Virus record (IMG/VR): IMGVR_UViG_3300037245_001139
Span: 1-45,612 of that record
Reading direction: 5' to 3' (one strand)
DNA: 45,612 bases
Origin: a virus
Shown here: positions 3,495 to 27,204 of the stretch, in pieces
Numbering within the stretch: position 1 is the stretch's first letter
Layout of the letters: the number at the start of each line of letters is the position of its first letter
Position numbers and translations under genes: made by a program
The notes under the pieces: model-generated
The model's input: only the letters and a program-made list of their open reading frames with translations
What the model was told of the DNA's origin: nothing
The model's database searches: none

Positions 3495-6400
3495 TATCGT
3501 ATGTTGTTTTCAAATATAGTTGAAATTCCTCTCAAAACAAATTCGTTACCTTCATTTGTATAAGAGAGTTTAAATATCAAATAGTCACCTTTCATTCGTT
3601 CTCTAAAAGCATAATCAGAGTCAATAGGTACTGTTCCGCCTTCAGGTTGATAGATGTTATCTAAGTCAAAGATTTCATCACCATTATCTTTAACAGAGTC
3701 TCTTGGTATTGCAATTCTATACTCATCGTTTTTAAACTTATAGAGTATTGAACCGGGCAGTTTAGTAGGATTAAAAACATTACCATTTTGAAATGTTAAT
3801 ACTCCTGTATTTTGTCGGTCTGTATATGCTTGGAAAGTTGTCCAAAAATCATCTTTAACTTTTTTACTATTTCCAAGTATATCGATATCATGTACTTGAT
3901 TATTAAACACAGCTGCATTTTCTACAGGCACAACAAAGGTTAATTCACTTGGGTATGTAGTTCCAAAGAAATTACATTTCTCACCAACATTCATCTCCCA
4001 TAATTCAGAACCACTATTCAGGTTATGAGATATGAGCATCACCCTATTATCAAAAGGTATGATGACTCTAGGCATGTAGCTATGGAAGAATCCCCAACTC
4101 TGCATTAATACATCATAACTCAATGTAAACTCACCAACTTTAGCAATCCAAGCTCTTTTAAGTTTAAAATCATAACCACCTATGTAACCAATTCCATTAA
4201 AAGGATTGTCAATCAGATTGGCATTCTCAGTACTAACATTAATAAAGTCTATATCTCCATTTATACGAGTCAATCCTACATCCATGTTTTTATGCAAGAA
4301 TGTATACAACCCTTCCATACTTAAATCTTTCAAAAAAGGTCCTTCTTTACTAACAGATAGTGCAAAGACTTTACCTTGAAGTACGTCTGGAAATATATAA
4401 CCCATTTGAGTATGACTACCACCAAACTGACTAATACTTCCTCCATAACCACCAGAAGTAGTTAACATCTGAACACTTGGTCTACTAAAAAGAGCTCCAG
4501 TACCTAATACAACATCGCTTATGTTACCACCACTTAATGTAGCAGCAGGTTCCGCAAACGTTCTCCATAATGACTTTGGTGTATGTAAATACAAATTATT
4601 AGCATGTATAAAAGAATCCCATATAGGTCCTGTTTCAGCAGGCAAGTCATAATAGTTATTAACTAAGAAACTACGATAGTTATCTATAACACTATCTGTT
4701 TTAGCTTTTTCACTATATATAGTTCTTGTTTCAAAAGAACTAACTATTGTTTGAGTACTACCTTTAACAAAATATTGAAGTAATGTATTCTCATAACTGT
4801 AAAGTCCATTATAAGCTCTTATATTACCAAGGTAAGCAAAGAACGAATTTAAGTTAGTTCTAGGATCAGGTTCGTTAGGAAAGTAGTTTTGAACTTCTTC
4901 ATCTTCAGGTCTATGTCTATAGTAAGTATTTATATCACTCTCTACAAAATAATAATGACATGTTCTAAAATCATATCCATCTGCTTTAAATCCGCTATCA
5001 CTATTTGTCTCTGGACCAGTCTCTATATGAAAATAATCTCTTCTACTATTTGAACGAAAAGGTCTGTTAATACTAGCTGAACCATCTCTCTTATAAGGAT
5101 AATACCAAACAATCCCTCCTGTGTTAAAACTAAACTTAGTAATAAATGTATCTCCACCAAAGCATGTATAACTGGTACTTTGTTTAAATCTACCAATCGG
5201 TATAAATGAAGCAGTACTTAATTCTCCATACTGAGCTATATTTTCATATTCAGCGTTGTATAAATGGTTTTGTATTTCAAATATATCAGATTGATTAGTA
5301 TCAACTCCATCAACTTGAACAGAACCAACTTCTATTTCGTTATCACAATTACTAAAACAAAGACTTGGTTTATTAAATACTTTTACATCATGATTTATTT
5401 TTAACTTAGGGCCCCCTTGGTCTATAAACTCATGTTCAGCCTCATAAGGTTCGTTTGGTTGCAAACTACTTGGATTAGATACTTTAACTTCCCATCCTCC
5501 TTGAGTCCATCTTGTAGTAACATCATTAGGAAAGTTTAAGTCTGGCTCTAATCCACTATTACGTCTTTGTCCAGAAGGTCTTTTTTCAACATCTTCAATT
5601 TTTCTATTGTTTGAATCAGTATTTGTATACGTTTCATCATAATCATCATATGAACCATGTAAATCTTGATAAGCCCAATTCTCCAACCAGTCTTCCCCAC
5701 TTTCTCCTTTAAACTTATTTTTAGAAGCTGCTGTGACTGAAACTTTAGCTTTCAATAATAAACTTGGTTTTAAAAAAGAGTTATTTATTTCATTTGAATC
5801 TACATTACTACTAAGTATACTTTCAGGACAATGAAAGAACGCTCTGTTTCCTCGAATTTTAGTAGCTAATTTTCTACCATCAAAGAAAGTACCTCCACCC
5901 AATGTAAATTGAGCACCAGTTGCTCCCGGATAACAAACACCTCTTCTACTGCTACCACTACTTACTTCAATGTTATCTCCAACAACATCCATTGTTTCTA
6001 AGTTGTTAAAGAATGGCATTTCTTGTAAACAATAACTACTTCTAACATTATTTATAACAGTGCCATCTATGACTCCTGAATTATTACAATGATCAGCAGT
6101 TTCAACAAGTCTGTTAATTAAACCTTGAGCAACTATACTTTTATTAAGTCTACTATTACGTCTTTCTCTAACAAAGATAACACTTTGTATATTTGACTTT
6201 ATGTCATCAGGAATTTGAAAAGCAGGGTCAAGTGTAAACTTAACTCCCATAGATCTAACTAAAGTTGTAGATGAACTTTTTCTAAAGTGAGGTTCTTGTT
6301 GTAAACTTGGAAATACATGATGTCTTACATTACGAACTGTGCTAATAAGCTCATCTCCAGGTTCATTACCAGGATAGTTTTGATTAAGAGGATAGTTTAC

Positions 6401-8479
6401 ATTAGAAATATACGTACCAAGTTCTCCTGTAGTATTACCAGTTCTGTAATCACTAACTGTTGGAAATGTTTTACCTAAGTTTGTAATTGTTTTATCATTT
6501 CCAGGGATATGATATGTAAAACTTGTAGAACCATCTTTAAACAAGAATACTACACCAAAAGAATATACCTCACTTCTTCTATAAGAACGATAATCATATC
6601 CTATTTTTTCATCTAAAAAGTCAGTAAACCCCGCTGCAGAAACCTCACCACCTGAGTCTGAACCATTTGAAACAGAAGTTTCTGGAGATTGATTAATACT
6701 AGTTCCATCTGAATCAATACTTATTATATTATTAGAGTTTATTATATCAGCGGTACTTATTTGAGAAACTCCATCAAATGTATAGAGTAATGTATTAGAA
6801 CTTGTTAATTCTAAAGCTGTTGCACTAACTGTAGTGACAACTGTAGTTTCACCTGTAAGAGCAGCACTACCTGTAATACCACCTGTATAAGACATAGGTA
6901 CATTTTCTCCACCGGTACCATCCCATATAACAAATGTTTTAAATACTCCTCCATCATCTTTAACATTAGCATTATAAGATCTTGTTATATTGTTTATAGC
7001 ACTTGCTAAATTAGCAGCCATGGCTGTTACATTTCCATCAAAAAGAAATTCAATACTTTCATTACCCGGAGTTATAGTTGAAACACAAGTATAAACATCG
7101 CCATCTATAGTTACAGTATCTGTTACAACTGCCGCTGTTAAATCAACTAAACCTGTAGCAGGTTCTCCATTCTTAGTTAATATATGACTAAAACCTCCAT
7201 ATAAACCTTGACCTCCTGGTACATTACTTGAAGCTGGATTAAATGCTACAAACTTAACATCTTTAGAAAACTGTATTTGTATTTGATTATCTCCAACTAT
7301 TAAAACTGAAGTAGGTGAAAACCCATCTGAAGATTGACTAACTCCTGTACCTTCTCTTCCACTATATACTAACTCTTTGATTACATAATCTGTAGTTATA
7401 TGATTTGCAACTTGTTGTAACGCTGCATCATCGAGTAAATCATCAGTTAAGTTAGACAAGAAAAGAGTATTATCTTTTTGAGTTATAGTTTTAGCTCTTG
7501 TATAAGATATTGGAACTTGTCTAAGTTCTTCAAGAGTTAACGAAACACCTTCACTTAAATCTCCTGTAAAAGTGTAAGTTTGAGTAGATCCTGTTATAGG
7601 AAGTTTTGCTACTGAAGTAGCACCAAAAACACCACTTTCATTATAATAAGTAGCTATGATTTCAACTTCTGTAAAGTTTGAATCTAAATCTGAAATATCA
7701 ATGATTATGTTTTTATTAACTTCTTCATTCCAAAATTCACCACTATACTTATCAACACCATTATCTTTACTGTTAGGTGTAACTGAAATAGGATTTGTAG
7801 GTATACCAAAAGTTGTAGAACCTCCATTATTAGTTATATATCTTGGTATAAATTGATATATACCACACTTTAAAGAACCAACAACGTTCTCTTGAAGTTT
7901 GACAAAATCTAAGAATGGCATGTTTTGTTCAAACACAAGTCTGCTTTGTTGTATAACATTGTTTACCTCAGGTCCTTTTTCAAGTTCAACCCTTCCAAAA
8001 GGCATATTGTTATCTGTAAAATACAAAACTCTACTAGTGTCTATTAACTTTCTACTAACACAATCTATAGGATAATCAACACTAAATCCAAACTCAGTGT
8101 TATCTTCTGGATAACGAAGTCTTGGTTGAGACTCATCAAAGTTAGGGTCAACTGGAGCTACAGGATGATAATATCCATAATCAGGGTCTAAGTTAGATGA
8201 ATCTTCTCTTATATAACCTATTTGAGATGTACCATCATCACCTACTAAAATAACTATAATGTCGTAGCTTAAGACACTATAACCCATAACTTGTTTGTTA
8301 GGAGGAAAGGTTACGTTCATTAAAGTTGTACCATCTTCGTTTATTACACTATACTTGTTTCCATCTTTAGACAAATGTACGAAGTTTAGACCATCTCTAT
8401 AAGTATGAGGTAATTGCTCACCTGGGTGAGCATCTGAATCCATACCTTTTACAAACTTGTTATTATTAATGTCTGCCAT
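3494..8479 (-). CDS. Muzzle / tail stabilisation-like protein, 1661 aa
   Basis: This is the largest gene in the window. The protein is almost entirely beta-rich and rich in Asn, Ser, Thr, Tyr and aromatic residues, as expected for the nozzle (muzzle, 'stabilisation protein') at the tip of a short crAss-like tail, the counterpart of P22 gp10 / T7 gp12. Its place directly after the ring-protein genes and before the cargo genes matches that role. Residues about 372-615 look like an inserted module with a VTIDGDVYTC...NVTAMAANLASAIN repeat-domain signature and a Ser/Thr-rich linker. Either side of it reads like continuous nozzle sequence. The start at 8479 overlaps the end of the upstream gene by 14 bases. 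Confidence 0.7.
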   Translation of the reverse strand: MADINNNKFVKGMDSDAHPGEQLPHTYRDGLNFVHLSKDGNKYSVINEDGTTLMNVTFPPNKQVMGYSVLSYDIIVILVGDDGTSQIGYIREDSSNLDPDYGYYHPVAPVDPNFDESQPRLRYPEDNTEFGFSVDYPIDCVSRKLIDTSRVLYFTDNNMPFGRVELEKGPEVNNVIQQSRLVFEQNMPFLDFVKLQENVVGSLKCGIYQFIPRYITNNGGSTTFGIPTNPISVTPNSKDNGVDKYSGEFWNEEVNKNIIIDISDLDSNFTEVEIIATYYNESGVFGATSVAKLPITGSTQTYTFTGDLSEGVSLTLEELRQVPISYTRAKTITQKDNTLFLSNLTDDLLDDAALQQVANHITTDYVIKELVYSGREGTGVSQSSDGFSPTSVLIVGDNQIQIQFSKDVKFVAFNPASSNVPGGQGLYGGFSHILTKNGEPATGLVDLTAAVVTDTVTIDGDVYTCVSTITPGNESIEFLFDGNVTAMAANLASAINNITRSYNANVKDDGGVFKTFVIWDGTGGENVPMSYTGGITGSAALTGETTVVTTVSATALELTSSNTLLYTFDGVSQISTADIINSNNIISIDSDGTSINQSPETSVSNGSDSGGEVSAAGFTDFLDEKIGYDYRSYRRSEVYSFGVVFLFKDGSTSFTYHIPGNDKTITNLGKTFPTVSDYRTGNTTGELGTYISNVNYPLNQNYPGNEPGDELISTVRNVRHHVFPSLQQEPHFRKSSSTTLVRSMGVKFTLDPAFQIPDDIKSNIQSVIFVRERRNSRLNKSIVAQGLINRLVETADHCNNSGVIDGTVINNVRSSYCLQEMPFFNNLETMDVVGDNIEVSSGSSRRGVCYPGATGAQFTLGGGTFFDGRKLATKIRGNRAFFHCPESILSSNVDSNEINNSFLKPSLLLKAKVSVTAASKNKFKGESGEDWLENWAYQDLHGSYDDYDETYTNTDSNNRKIEDVEKRPSGQRRNSGLEPDLNFPNDVTTRWTQGGWEVKVSNPSSLQPNEPYEAEHEFIDQGGPKLKINHDVKVFNKPSLCFSNCDNEIEVGSVQVDGVDTNQSDIFEIQNHLYNAEYENIAQYGELSTASFIPIGRFKQSTSYTCFGGDTFITKFSFNTGGIVWYYPYKRDGSASINRPFRSNSRRDYFHIETGPETNSDSGFKADGYDFRTCHYYFVESDINTYYRHRPEDEEVQNYFPNEPDPRTNLNSFFAYLGNIRAYNGLYSYENTLLQYFVKGSTQTIVSSFETRTIYSEKAKTDSVIDNYRSFLVNNYYDLPAETGPIWDSFIHANNLYLHTPKSLWRTFAEPAATLSGGNISDVVLGTGALFSRPSVQMLTTSGGYGGSISQFGGSHTQMGYIFPDVLQGKVFALSVSKEGPFLKDLSMEGLYTFLHKNMDVGLTRINGDIDFINVSTENANLIDNPFNGIGYIGGYDFKLKRAWIAKVGEFTLSYDVLMQSWGFFHSYMPRVIIPFDNRVMLISHNLNSGSELWEMNVGEKCNFFGTTYPSELTFVVPVENAAVFNNQVHDIDILGNSKKVKDDFWTTFQAYTDRQNTGVLTFQNGNVFNPTKLPGSILYKFKNDEYRIAIPRDSVKDNGDEIFDLDNIYQPEGGTVPIDSDYAFRERMKGDYLIFKLSYTNEGNEFVLRGISTIFENNIR

Positions 8480-24527: not shown

Positions 24528-24788
24528 ATGAAAGATTTAAAAGATAAATTATTAAACCTTTATAGTCAAGCTATTGATAGTGGATTAAAAGAGTTTGAAT
24601 TAGAATACAATCAATTATTAGCAAAGACTATTAAAGATTGTATTAAGGATGGAAATGATTCTGTTTTCTTAGACATTGCTTTAGAAACTGAATATGAAAC
24701 GCAGTTTAACGCAATGGTGAGAATAAGAAAACAATACTTCGATTACGAAGAACATCAAAAGAGTATAATAGCTCTATGTTTGAACTAA
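24528..24788 (+). CDS. Unknown helical protein, 86 aa
   Basis: A soluble, mostly helical and acidic protein (MKDLKDKLLNLYSQAIDSGLKEFELEYNQ). It has no signal, membrane or metal motif, and I do not recognise a family. Its stop codon overlaps the first stem of the hammerhead-like element that follows, so the element lies in the mRNA between this gene and the next. Confidence 0.55.
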   Translation: MKDLKDKLLNLYSQAIDSGLKEFELEYNQLLAKTIKDCIKDGNDSVFLDIALETEYETQFNAMVRIRKQYFDYEEHQKSIIALCLN

Positions 24789-24821
24789 CCTCCAAAGAGT
24801 CGAAATGTTAGGTGTCAGGTT
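24787..24821 (+). ncRNA. Decayed or variant hammerhead-like element
   Basis: Stem I pairs AACCT (24787-24791) with AGGTT (24817-24821). The core reads CCAAAGA where the canonical element has CTGATGA, so two invariant positions (U4 to C, G5 to A) are changed. Stem II is reduced to GTC. GAA plus the 15.1 A follow at 24802-24805. Stem III keeps four (mostly G-U) pairs with a 3-base loop, and GTGT on its 3' side is the same as in the intact copy. The cleavage triplet is the classical GUC, with the cut before A24817. The following 16 bases are identical to those after the intact ribozyme, and the distance to the ATG is the same. Activity is doubtful. Confidence 0.5.
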
Positions 24822-24839
24822 TAATTTAAAGAGAAAGAA

Positions 24840-25040
24840 ATGGAGAAGTTAATAAAAAAGTACTTCCTTAATGAAGGAAGCAAGTTGGTGAAAGTTGGCC
24901 CTATTAATAACGGACAATGTGATGCTTGGTTTGAAGACGAAGCAGAAAACGTTCAGCACAGATGTGTTGAGCATAAAGACATTATAAGATATGAGATCAT
25001 CAATCTCACATCTGAACAACTTCAAAACTACAACTTTTAA
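24840..25040 (+). CDS. Small acidic paralogue A, 66 aa
   Basis: Starts 23 nt after the predicted cleavage position of the hammerhead-like element. Residues 3-49 (KLIKKYFLNEGSKLVKVGPINNG...AWFEDEAENVQHRCVEHKDII) align with the next gene's KLIKKYSLNKGSILIQLIPN...VWFRSGIDVQHRRIKFKDLI. The two are therefore tandem paralogues of unknown function. No membrane or metal motif is seen. It ends 3 bases before its paralogue. Confidence 0.6.
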   Translation: MEKLIKKYFLNEGSKLVKVGPINNGQCDAWFEDEAENVQHRCVEHKDIIRYEIINLTSEQLQNYNF

Positions 25041-25043
25041 GAG

Positions 25044-25271
25044 ATGGATATGGATATTATAGGAAGAATTCCAGCACAGGAAGTAAAGATAAAAATTAAA
25101 CGTAAACTTATAAAGAAATACTCCCTAAACAAAGGGAGTATTTTAATTCAACTTATACCAAATCAAGTTGAAAAAAGAAATAAAGTTTTAAACGTTTGGT
25201 TTAGAAGCGGAATAGACGTCCAACATAGAAGGATTAAGTTTAAAGACTTAATCGATTCAATCATAGACTAA
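25044..25271 (+). CDS. Small basic paralogue B, 75 aa
   Basis: Shares the plan of the preceding gene (LIKKY.LN.GS, then a strand, then W F and VQHR plus KD(I/L)I). It carries about 18 extra residues at the N-terminus (MDMDIIGRIPAQEVKIKIKR) and is more basic, whereas paralogue A is acidic. It probably arose by tandem duplication and then diverged in charge. Function unknown. Translation is probably coupled to A. Confidence 0.6.
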   Translation: MDMDIIGRIPAQEVKIKIKRKLIKKYSLNKGSILIQLIPNQVEKRNKVLNVWFRSGIDVQHRRIKFKDLIDSIID

Positions 25272-25284
25272 AAAAGATAAGATT

Positions 25285-25443
25285 ATGTATAGTATGTTAA
25301 GTAATAAGTCAGATGGACATCGTGTTGTAAAACATGATATGGGCAGTGTACTTGTTTATTGTCCAAAAGTAAAGGACAATGTAAGAGGAAACATAACATC
25401 AATTGGTGTAAAATGCACCTGTGGAAAACATGTAAAACATTAA
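25285..25443 (+). CDS. Small Cys/His protein, 52 aa
   Basis: Reads MYSMLSNKSDGHRVVKHDMG, later VYCPKVKD and near the end GVKCTCGKHVKH. Three Cys plus nearby His could hold one zinc ion (C...CxC..H). No family recognised. It lies between paralogue B and the strong hairpin that precedes the hammerhead, and its stop is at 25441-25443. Confidence 0.55.
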   Translation: MYSMLSNKSDGHRVVKHDMGSVLVYCPKVKDNVRGNITSIGVKCTCGKHVKH

Positions 25444-25446
25444 TTA

Positions 25447-25481
25447 AACCTCGCTGAAAACTACGGTTAGTAAGCGAGGTT
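25447..25481 (+). promoter_or_regulatory. Strong hairpin just upstream of the hammerhead
   Basis: A perfect 9-bp stem, AACCTCGCT/AGCGAGGTT, with a 17-base loop starts 3 bases after the stop codon of the 52-residue gene and ends 3 bases before stem I of the hammerhead. It has no T run. After self-cleavage it would lie close to the new 3' end of the upstream mRNA and could protect it from exonucleases. Confidence 0.7.
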
Positions 25482-25484
25482 ATA

Positions 25485-25536
25485 AAACCTCTGATGAGTA
25501 ACACTGAAAGGTGACGAAACACAATGTGTAAGGTTT
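25485..25536 (+). ncRNA. Type I hammerhead ribozyme
   Basis: All invariant positions are present. Stem I is AAACCT (25485-25490) with AGGTTT (25531-25536), 6 bp perfect. The core CTGATGA is at 25491-25497. Stem II starts with the standard G-C pair (25498/25515) and U-A, then CAC/GTG, with an AA bulge and a 6-base loop. GAA at 25516-25518 is followed by the 15.1-16.1 A-U pair. Stem III is ACAC/GTGT with a 3-base loop. The cleavage triplet is GUA, an accepted NUH site, so the cut falls between 25530 and 25531. With both ends in stem I it is type I. The predicted product starts 23 nt before the next ATG. Confidence 0.85.
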
Positions 25537-25553
25537 AATTTAAAGATAATAAG

Positions 25554-25958
25554 ATGAAAAAGTTATTAGTAGCAATAAACAACAATTACGGTGGCTTTCC
25601 TTTTGAGTTGAAGAGAGAATACTCTTCAGTTAAAGAGTTTCAGAAAGACTGCAAAATTGCAGGTGACGATGCAAAAGCAGTTCAATTATTGGCTATCGAG
25701 TTAGCCGATAATGAGTACTATGTTATTAGCGAGTATGATGGATGGGAGAACATTCATTTCAAGAAAAAAGAAGGTTGTTCTTCTAGAATTCTAGCTGTGA
25801 AGTCAGCTGAAATACCAGAAAACACATACAAGGTGTATGTACACAACAAACTTATTCAAACATTCTCTTGTAAAGAAAAGTACTTAGACATAGCTCTTGA
25901 AGACATAGCTCTTCAAACTAATACGTCTGTATTTAACTTAAAAAGAGAGTTAATATGA
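25554..25958 (+). CDS. Unknown protein downstream of the hammerhead, 134 aa
   Basis: A soluble mixed alpha/beta protein: MKKLLVAINNNYGGFPFELKREYSSVKEFQKDCK at the start, then YYVISEYDGWENIHFKKKEGC and a C-terminal helix SCKEKYLDIALEDIALQTNTS. No family recognised. Its ATG lies 23 nt after the predicted ribozyme cleavage point, so its mRNA would carry a processed 5' end with a 5' hydroxyl. It overlaps the following membrane-protein gene by the ATGA form. Confidence 0.55.
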   Translation: MKKLLVAINNNYGGFPFELKREYSSVKEFQKDCKIAGDDAKAVQLLAIELADNEYYVISEYDGWENIHFKKKEGCSSRILAVKSAEIPENTYKVYVHNKLIQTFSCKEKYLDIALEDIALQTNTSVFNLKRELI

Positions 25959-26119
25959 GAGGGGTCGTATCAGTAATGGCATTCATAGGATTTTGGATGC
26001 CATTCTTATTACCAACATACTTTATGTTGGCTGGACATTTATTCTCCGTTCTATGGAGTATAATGTGTCTTATTGCAATGTGTGCAGTAGCAGGAGGAGA
26101 GTATAAAGAAAATAAATAA
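25955..26119 (+). CDS. Small membrane protein, 54 aa
   Basis: The start overlaps the previous stop (ATGA). The frame reads MRGVVSVMAFIGFWMPFLLP, then TYFMLAGHLFSVLWSIMCLIAMCAVAGG and a charged tail EYKENK. Two hydrophobic helices with a short turn fit a two-pass inner-membrane peptide. Function unknown; lysis-associated or superinfection roles are possible but unsupported. Confidence 0.6.
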   Translation: MRGVVSVMAFIGFWMPFLLPTYFMLAGHLFSVLWSIMCLIAMCAVAGGEYKENK

Positions 26120-26123
26120 AGAT

Positions 26124-26399
26124 ATGTATTTAAAAGGAGAGATAATAAATGAGAGATTAATTTACTCTCAAGCCTTAAGAGAGGCTAAGAAAGAAGGTCT
26201 TAACTTCGTAATTAATTACGAAAAAATAGGTGTGATAAGAAAAAAAGGAGATGATAGAATTTTTGCTTCTATGATTCTTCCTTCAATCTTTATGAGAATG
26301 TTAAAGAAAGAAGGATTAACCAATCCAAGATGGGTTAATGGAAAGAAAATACAGTTTACTCATGTTGTTAACAATAAAAGAGAAACTGTCACAATATAA
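26124..26399 (+). CDS. Unknown basic protein, 91 aa
   Basis: Reads MYLKGEIINERLIYSQALREAKKEGLNFVINYEKIGVIRKK at the start, then RIFASMILPSIFMRMLKKEG and KIQFTHVVNNKRETVTI at the end. A soluble, mostly basic protein with one short hydrophobic stretch. It starts 4 bases after the membrane peptide gene and is followed by a long hairpin. No family recognised. Confidence 0.5.
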   Translation: MYLKGEIINERLIYSQALREAKKEGLNFVINYEKIGVIRKKGDDRIFASMILPSIFMRMLKKEGLTNPRWVNGKKIQFTHVVNNKRETVTI

Positions 26400-26404
26400 C
26401 ATTA

Positions 26405-26435
26405 AGAATAGCATTCATCCTATGGGTGCTATTCT
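26405..26435 (+). terminator. Hairpin terminator
   Basis: A 9-bp stem AGAATAGCA/TGCTATTCT (loop of 13 bases that can pair further as CATCC/GGGTG) is followed by CTATTTAAA. It lies 6 bases after the stop codon of the 91-residue gene. Confidence 0.65.
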
Positions 26436-26471
26436 CTATTTAAAATAAAAGAAAACAAACTTAGATTTATT

Positions 26472-26741
26472 ATGAGCAGATACACAAAGCAGATAAATAG
26501 AAATGAATCAAATGAGACTACGGTCTTGTTTGATACTACTATCACGTATGGTTTCGACCACGTGACAGGCTACTTCTTTGAGGTCTTTCAAGGAGAGACC
26601 AAGGATGGTGAAGATGTGCTAGCTATAGAAGAGTGTTCAACATTCACTGGAATGAGTAACGGAAGAATGATAGAGCTTATGGAGAAGTACAGAGTTGACG
26701 AAGAACACATAAAAGGTGTAGCCTTAGATTTACCGATATGA
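26472..26741 (+). CDS. Unknown acidic protein, 89 aa
   Basis: A soluble protein with strand-like segments (TTVLFDTTITYGFDHVTGYFFEVFQGETKDGEDVLAIEECSTFTGMSNGRMIELMEKYRV). The C-terminus ends in VDEEHIKGVALDLPI. The pattern resembles small phage proteins of unknown role. It starts after a terminator, so it may begin a new transcript that continues through the overlapping genes to 28120. Confidence 0.5.
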   Translation: MSRYTKQINRNESNETTVLFDTTITYGFDHVTGYFFEVFQGETKDGEDVLAIEECSTFTGMSNGRMIELMEKYRVDEEHIKGVALDLPI

Positions 26742-26766
26742 CTATTAAAGAAGAGGATGTAAGCTT

Positions 26767-27204
26767 ATGTATAGTTATAAAGTCAAAGTAGACAGAACTA
26801 TTTATCCTTTATTTGTTTGGTTAGGGTCTTTCTTAGTAGGAGATTTAATCTTATGGGGATTGTTTGAGCTTTTAGCTTTAACAGAGATAGGTGGTGTACA
26901 TTTTTTGTTATTTCTTTTAATGTGTTTAACTGTAGCAGTCTTTATTGTAATGACAATTGGGTTACTTGAAGGACTTTGGGGAGCAATTGAGTACGTAGGC
27001 GAGACAACCTGTAAACTATACTTAATACAAGAGAGAGGCTCTTTCGTTATAGAGAAACATATAGAAGGTGAGATAGAAGTTCTTAAAAGGTTTGAGTATA
27101 ACTGGAGAGATACAGATGTAAAAAAGAGTGATGTAGAAGCTAAAGCACGTGTGTGGATTAGAGACTATTATGAAGATAACTTAACTGAAAGAAAGATATT
27201 ATGA
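26767..27204 (+). CDS. Membrane protein, 145 aa
   Basis: Two to three hydrophobic helices lie in the N-terminal half (LFVWLGSFLVGDLILWGLFELL; FLLFLLMCLTVAVFIVMTIGLLEGLW). They are followed by a charged soluble C-terminal domain (KHIEGEIEVLKRFEYNW...VRIRDYYED-type). The start is at ATG 26767. A short upstream frame of 17 codons at 26738 overlaps it and is ignored. The next gene overlaps by 4 bases (ATGA). Probably in the inner membrane; function unknown. Confidence 0.6.
   Translation: MYSYKVKVDRTIYPLFVWLGSFLVGDLILWGLFELLALTEIGGVHFLLFLLMCLTVAVFIVMTIGLLEGLWGAIEYVGETTCKLYLIQERGSFVIEKHIEGEIEVLKRFEYNWRDTDVKKSDVEAKARVWIRDYYEDNLTERKIL

Follow-up and report, generated by a model that had tools for sequence, protein, structure and literature searches.

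Hammerhead ribozymes in phage genomes have been described before. In the sections on prophages in Perreault et al. 2011 (PMC3088659), clustered hammerheads flank single genes or gene blocks, as do the phage elements described below. Tandem prophage hammerheads cleave in vitro, a set from Agrobacterium tumefaciens cleaves when transcribed in Escherichia coli, and processing of long phage transcripts was proposed; both tandem phage hammerheads and phage transcript processing are thus ideas already put forward in 2011. The same article's account of HHphage, from haloviruses HF1/HF2, places a hammerhead 13 nucleotides upstream of an early gene's start codon, an arrangement much like the one reported here; the HHphage core is altered by inserted bases, whereas the core of our copy is the consensus.

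Three other families provide points of comparison. The Rfam family Hammerhead_1 (RF00163) shares with our copy the core, the NUH triplet and the three-helix permutation in which stem I is open and stems II and III are closed. Our copy differs in scoring below the gathering threshold, in its phage-type UGAAA-like loop II, and in the AA-rich 5' flank of its short stem I. RAGATH-1 (RF03152), which also occurs in crAss-like phages, similarly has a hammerhead core that follows a hairpin and an AUAAA linker, but its stem II is minimal, and here complementary to the upstream hairpin loop, whereas our copy has a real stem II. Theta ribozymes of gut phages (PMC10879173) are likewise small self-cleaving phage ribozymes with a positional association; however, they have an HDV-like fold and lie at tRNAs, and are not hammerheads at protein-gene junctions. 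Within the open-access literature that was searched, no paper joining hammerheads and crAss-like phages was found.

A predicted type I hammerhead between two early genes

The window analysed here is the whole 45,612-nucleotide stretch of IMG/VR virus record IMGVR_UViG_3300037245_001139. An earlier note on this DNA had assigned it to a crAss-like phage, and the assignment is upheld by a TerL that is 33% identical to that of Cellulophaga phi14:2 (Crassvirales), the best named TerL match. The window encodes Crassvirales-type TerL, portal and major head protein (phrog_6681, phrog_6547 and phrog_11589).

A complete type I hammerhead can be read from the plus strand at 25485-25536, at the junction between two early genes (Table 1). 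The note had recognized an invariant core and three stems here, and we found every one of these elements: CUGAUGA, GAA and the A15.1-U16.1 pair are all present, an NUH triplet (GUA) occupies 25528-25530, and the helix topology is that of type I, in which loops cap stems II and III and stem I stays open. Stem II is formed by pairs 25498-25515, 25499-25514, and 25502-25513 to 25504-25511, with an AA bulge at 25500-25501. The predicted cut between 25530 and 25531, 23 nucleotides upstream of the ATG at 25554, follows from this structure and agrees with the position proposed earlier.

Table 1. Predicted features at the early gene junction and at a related upstream site (window positions)
Feature	Coordinates	Strand	Remarks
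Degenerate junction copy	24780..24828	+	23 nt to ATG 24840, as in intact copy; repeat D1
Upstream ORF, 52 aa	25285..25443	+	Stop TAA 25441-25443
Hairpin, 9 bp AACCUCGCU/AGCGAGGUU, inner AAC[UACG]GUU	25447..25481	+	Between upstream stop codon and stem I
Stem I, 5' strand AAACCU	25485..25490	+	Pairs with 25531-25536, 6 bp AAACCU/AGGUUU
Catalytic core CUGAUGA	25491..25497	+	Sequence; R1/R2 model alignment
Stem II GU-[AA bulge]-CAC-UGAAAG-GUG-AC	25498..25515	+	Loop UGAAAG; model alignment and folding
Core GAA	25516..25518	+	Sequence
Stem III ACAC-AAU-GUGU	25519..25529	+	Outer pair is A15.1-U16.1, 25519-25529
Predicted cleavage site	25530..25531	+	After A17 (25530) of triplet GUA (25528-25530); placed by structure
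Stem I, 3' strand AGGUUU	25531..25536	+	First bases of predicted downstream product
Remaining A-rich leader, predicted cut to start codon	25537..25553	+	Leader total 23 nt
Downstream gene, 134 aa	25554..25958	+	ORF list

The window copy departs from the common form in three respects: its triplet is GUA where GUC is usual, two bases bulge out of stem II, and a 35-nucleotide hairpin lies between the upstream stop codon and stem I. GUA is a rare triplet, present in 5 of 130 unique hammerhead matches among the matches listed, while stem II bulges are also found in the hammerheads of L018, L020, L025 and L163. The earlier description of the ribozyme as apparently intact therefore holds for the core positions and the six-base-pair stem I, and needs qualification for the bulged stem II, the GUA triplet and a slightly more stable competing fold. 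The UGAAA-like loop II and the AA located 5' of stem I might point to a tertiary contact between stems I and II.

The 134-residue downstream protein has no convincing PHROG or Pfam match. No homologues of this protein, or of a 376-residue early protein, were found in viral_contigs, and region 24800-26800 has no DNA relatives among annotated phages. A search for Bacteroidota-type promoters gave matches no commoner than chance.

Support from covariance models and behaviour of Rfam

A strict type I descriptor matches only 25485-25536 when both strands of the whole window are searched. The same descriptor gave six matches in 300 Markov surrogates of the window, a chance rate of about 0.02 per window, and found nothing in 1.9 Mb of control sequence that had been reversed or complemented. 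We also built two covariance models from which the window was left out. Model R1, made from 11 phage hammerheads whose long stem III loops were shortened for alignment, scores the window hammerhead at 51.8 bits (E 9.7e-12), and model R2, made from 21 full-length matches, scores it at 46.4 bits (E 3.1e-10); the E-values are rough owing to short calibrations, which do not affect the bit scores.

The note had suggested a scan with RF00163, and this check did not turn out as hoped: the gathering threshold of 34 bits is not reached and the window contains no RF00163 match. At gathering thresholds Rfam returns no match anywhere in the window. The sole weak match at the site is to the type III family Hammerhead_3 (RF00008), at 20.3 bits against a gathering threshold of 48.5, in the wrong register and with its outer stem pairs broken, and a type III assignment was rejected. 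Membership of RAGATH-1 was rejected as well (12.7 bits versus a gathering threshold of 56.3), as was a RAGATH-1-like loop contact between GUUA (25466-25469) and UAAC (25499-25502), which at four nucleotides is at chance level. We ascribe the RF00163 miss to model sensitivity, because Rfam also fails on nearly every clear relative tested and on most of the related phage hammerheads checked. Among 14 loci with known phage hammerheads, one matches RF00163, with 34.2 bits against the cutoff of 34.

Related hammerheads in other phages

Three scans of IMG/VR yielded over 100 further type I hammerheads. The first, with the pattern ACCTCTGATGAGN{8,30}CGAAAC, returned 47 loci. About half are clearly hammerheads of type I located between phage genes; the remainder, mostly inside coding sequence (e.g. 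L010, L011 and L012), look like chance matches. The second, with core and stem III fixed, returned 65 loci, and the third, with core and stem II fixed, at least 120 matches. Of 117 unique matches among those listed for the core and stem II pattern, 103 also form both stem III and stem I properly and have an NUH site, where 0.6 would be expected to close stems III and I in shuffled downstream sequence. Each of the stem I pairs 1.1-1.4 is represented in the phage set by four or five different standard pair types (among the matches listed). We take such variation with pairing retained as strong compensatory evidence, applying to the phage family rather than to orthologues of this particular copy. 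Conservation of loop II and the core is partly imposed by the search patterns and was not counted as evidence.

Several contigs carry more than one element. Three to four type I hammerheads lie at successive gene junctions in L165, L237, L039 and L163, the maximum being four flanking successive genes in L237 and L039. Nearly identical hammerhead sequences surround different genes in L237. The pattern fixing core and stem II was also matched by 21 contigs from bacterial genome collections; almost all are MAGs, and many come from gut Bacillota.

A crAss-type portal was found in 14 of 29 contigs tested, nearly all of which bear hammerheads, and the MCP family in 6 of 25. Several of those portals have in-frame TAG codons, suggesting TAG recoding. 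One hammerhead-bearing contig whose portal has in-frame TAG (L048) encodes a tRNA with a CTA anticodon at 5174-5249, consistent with such recoding. Named crAssphages with hammerheads are the Oafivirinae members cr131_1, cr272_1 and cr273_1. Seven other Crassvirales records (phi14:2, crAss001, cr55_1, cr116_1, cr52_1, cr10_1 and cr113_1) gave no match to R2.

The closest relative found, contig L006, has a DNA polymerase 62% identical to that of the window. It carries a hammerhead in the corresponding early region (4275-4314) whose stem II is minimal; stem I reads UCAUA/UAUGA and stem III ACAC-UAU-GUGU. The two strands of its stem I differ entirely from those in the window and are still paired, and the two hammerheads precede different downstream genes. 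In L006 the loop of an upstream hairpin, UCUUGC, is fully complementary to loop II, GCAAGA, and Rfam scores the region (4250-4314) as RAGATH-1-like at 39.0 bits, below gathering. The L006 cut would fall 1 or 10 nucleotides before the next in-frame ATGs, leaving the message nearly leaderless. The same contig also has a tmRNA gene at 7348-7872 (ARAGORN; Rfam RF00023, 76 bits). No hammerhead was found in relatives L003, L004, L007 or L008, and a match in L005 (21-22 bits) has broken stems and was not counted.

Proper RAGATH-1 hammerheads are present in other crAss-like phages, namely L058 (cr272_1) and L201. As judged by these folds, at least two types of hammerhead occur in this phage group. Complementarity between the upstream loop and loop II is seen in RAGATH-1-type elements of L201, L277, L278, L280, L281, L282, L058 and L276, involving several different sequences at a constant position of -22 to -24 from the core. 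The cr272_1 hammerhead (L058, 1498-1640) is followed about 60 nucleotides later by a hairpin resembling an intrinsic terminator, with no ORF directly after, possibly a 3'-end or small-RNA arrangement.

Placement at gene junctions

The phage hammerheads lie in the sense direction between phage genes. For counting, matches were clustered into 98 groups, among the matches listed, and these groups include the TTT match of L027, which looks like a descriptor false positive. The start codon of an ORF of at least 40 amino acids lies 18-36 nucleotides past the cut in 50 of 98 clusters, compared with 8.8% for random positions in the same loci, and the most frequent spacing from cut to ATG is 27 nucleotides (both among the matches listed). 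On the other side, 53 of 96 clusters (among the matches listed) have the stop codon of a same-strand upstream ORF within -3 to +1 nucleotides of stem I. Crassvirales, the abutting stop codon and the modal 27-nucleotide leader are features of the present set that the portions of PMC3088659 on phage hammerheads do not describe.

Among the 43 groups that have no adjoining stop (among the matches listed), A occupies the two positions 5' of stem I in 36 and 33 groups, respectively, against an overall A content of 31%. Because A is enriched even in these groups, the AA probably belongs to the ribozyme itself and would be exploited by TAA stop codons.

The proteins encoded downstream include helicases, ATPases, a primase, a methyltransferase and endonuclease VII, and 70 of them form 59 clusters (among the matches listed), which favours RNA processing over a gene-specific switch; with downstream proteins so diverse, a gene-specific role is unsupported. 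On comparative grounds, the window hammerhead is one instance of a putative phage gene-junction element that precedes many unrelated genes.

The upstream hairpin and a competing fold

The hairpin at 25447-25481 has a minimum free energy of -13.7, compared with a shuffle mean of -4.7 (standard deviation 2.1). It has a UACG tetraloop and a GAA/AGUA internal loop resembling the loop E motif. The sequence AAACCTC occurs at both 25446-25452 and 25485-25491 and flanks most of the hairpin, which suggests that a ribozyme originally adjacent to the stop codon acquired the hairpin through an insertion or duplication.

The hairpin can alternatively pair with both strands of stem I. As a consequence of the AAACCTC duplication, a 10-base-pair helix (25442-25451/25531-25540) competes with stem I, and the full ribozyme fold therefore receives a minority share of the ViennaRNA ensemble, its probability ranging from about 0.6 to 5% with the choice of flanks, in an energy model without tertiary contacts. 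In silico, the alternative pairing with the upstream hairpin comes out slightly ahead of the ribozyme fold in stability, and the two lie within about 1-3 kcal/mol of each other.

It is conceivable, though we think it unlikely, that the hammerhead is real and regulated, the RNA switching between an active form with hairpin and ribozyme and an inactive form with the 10-base-pair helix, in a balance set by a ligand, a protein or the ribosome. Such a switch would fit the paired repeats (AACCUC at 25447-25452 and 25486-25491; GAGGUU/AGGUU at 25476-25481 and 25531-25535), the small energy difference between the two folds, and a hairpin far more stable than shuffles. A hairpin also precedes the ribozyme in the published RAGATH-1 type, and L006, cr131_1 and others show pairing of the hairpin loop with loop II. 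However, no relative with the same repeat pair was found in which covariation could bear on the alternative pairing. The hairpin is also transcribed first and should form first, favouring the active fold, and the energies that bring the two states so close omit tertiary contacts.

A core-less copy of the junction

About 700 nucleotides upstream of the intact hammerhead, a second copy of the junction (24780-24828) keeps the stem I strands, CGAAA and the GGTTTAATTTAAAGA leader, and has lost CUGAUGA and stem II. It scores 19.7 bits with R1 (E 0.009) and 13.4 bits with R2 (E 0.55), and should not cleave. A TAA stop codon (24786-24788) overlaps its former stem I, and similarity to the intact junction extends into the first codons past ATG 24840.

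The presence of this degenerate copy raises the question of whether the element at 25485-25536 is itself a relic in decay that has lost efficient cleavage, a reading to which we give little credence. The GUA triplet, the bulged stem II and the competing fold would all be compatible with decay. Against it, all core positions and the six base pairs of stem I are intact, a bulged stem II is shared with four other loci, and decay would be expected to remove the core, as it has in the upstream copy.

We regard it as very improbable that the motif is part of a mobile element or circular RNA instead of processing mRNA. Hammerheads do occur in retrozymes and viroid-like circular RNAs, according to the passages on these elements in PMC4918200 and PMC7761336, and similar motifs recur before unrelated genes in our set. 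The matches, however, are single motifs fitted between stop and start codons, and the window has no second intact ribozyme that would bound an RNA-sized unit and no long flanking repeats. A chance match to the consensus is scarcely credible: the descriptor by itself would match by chance 0.02 times per window, but models trained on other phages give E of 1e-10 to 1e-11 with matching flanks included, and position and orientation fit the family pattern.

Proposed role in transcript processing

We favour, with a probability of roughly 0.7, a cis-cleaving type I hammerhead at an early-operon junction of a crAss-like phage that would cut the polycistronic RNA, a reading against which the GUA triplet, the bulged stem II and the competing 10-base-pair helix must be counted. 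The ribozyme would fold as RNA polymerase passes and cut the early polycistronic RNA after A25530. The ribozyme body would stay on the upstream cistron, forming a 3' end that carries a 2',3'-cyclic phosphate, and the downstream cistron would begin with a 5'-hydroxyl and a 23-nucleotide A-rich leader just sufficient for ribosome binding. The separated mRNAs of the two genes could then be translated and decay independently. In the infected cell, we infer that cleavage would be largely constitutive and co-transcriptional, with a benefit for mRNA stability or translation. An effect on stability is plausible because 5'-hydroxyl ends are poor substrates for decay pathways that require a 5'-monophosphate. 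The earlier note had envisaged that cleavage gives the downstream gene a defined 5' end and separates the two halves of the transcript; this functional proposal gains strength from the wider set, whose members sit at junctions with an ATG typically 20-40 nucleotides past the cut.

More speculatively, these hammerheads may form a stereotyped junction module in many phages, crAss-like phages prominent among them, in which the upstream stop codon runs into stem I. A terminating ribosome might then cover and unfold the ribozyme, so that cleavage and separation of the mRNAs would depend on the level of upstream translation, and the module in the window would be a version modified by the inserted hairpin. 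We consider this unlikely.

The apparent novelty lies in how extensive the phage hammerhead set is, how poorly Rfam covers it and how regularly its members are spaced. Hammerheads are recurrent in the genomes of crAss-like and other phages, where standard Rfam annotation largely misses them. Being so regularly placed, they open the long-standing question of the function of genomic hammerheads to direct test.
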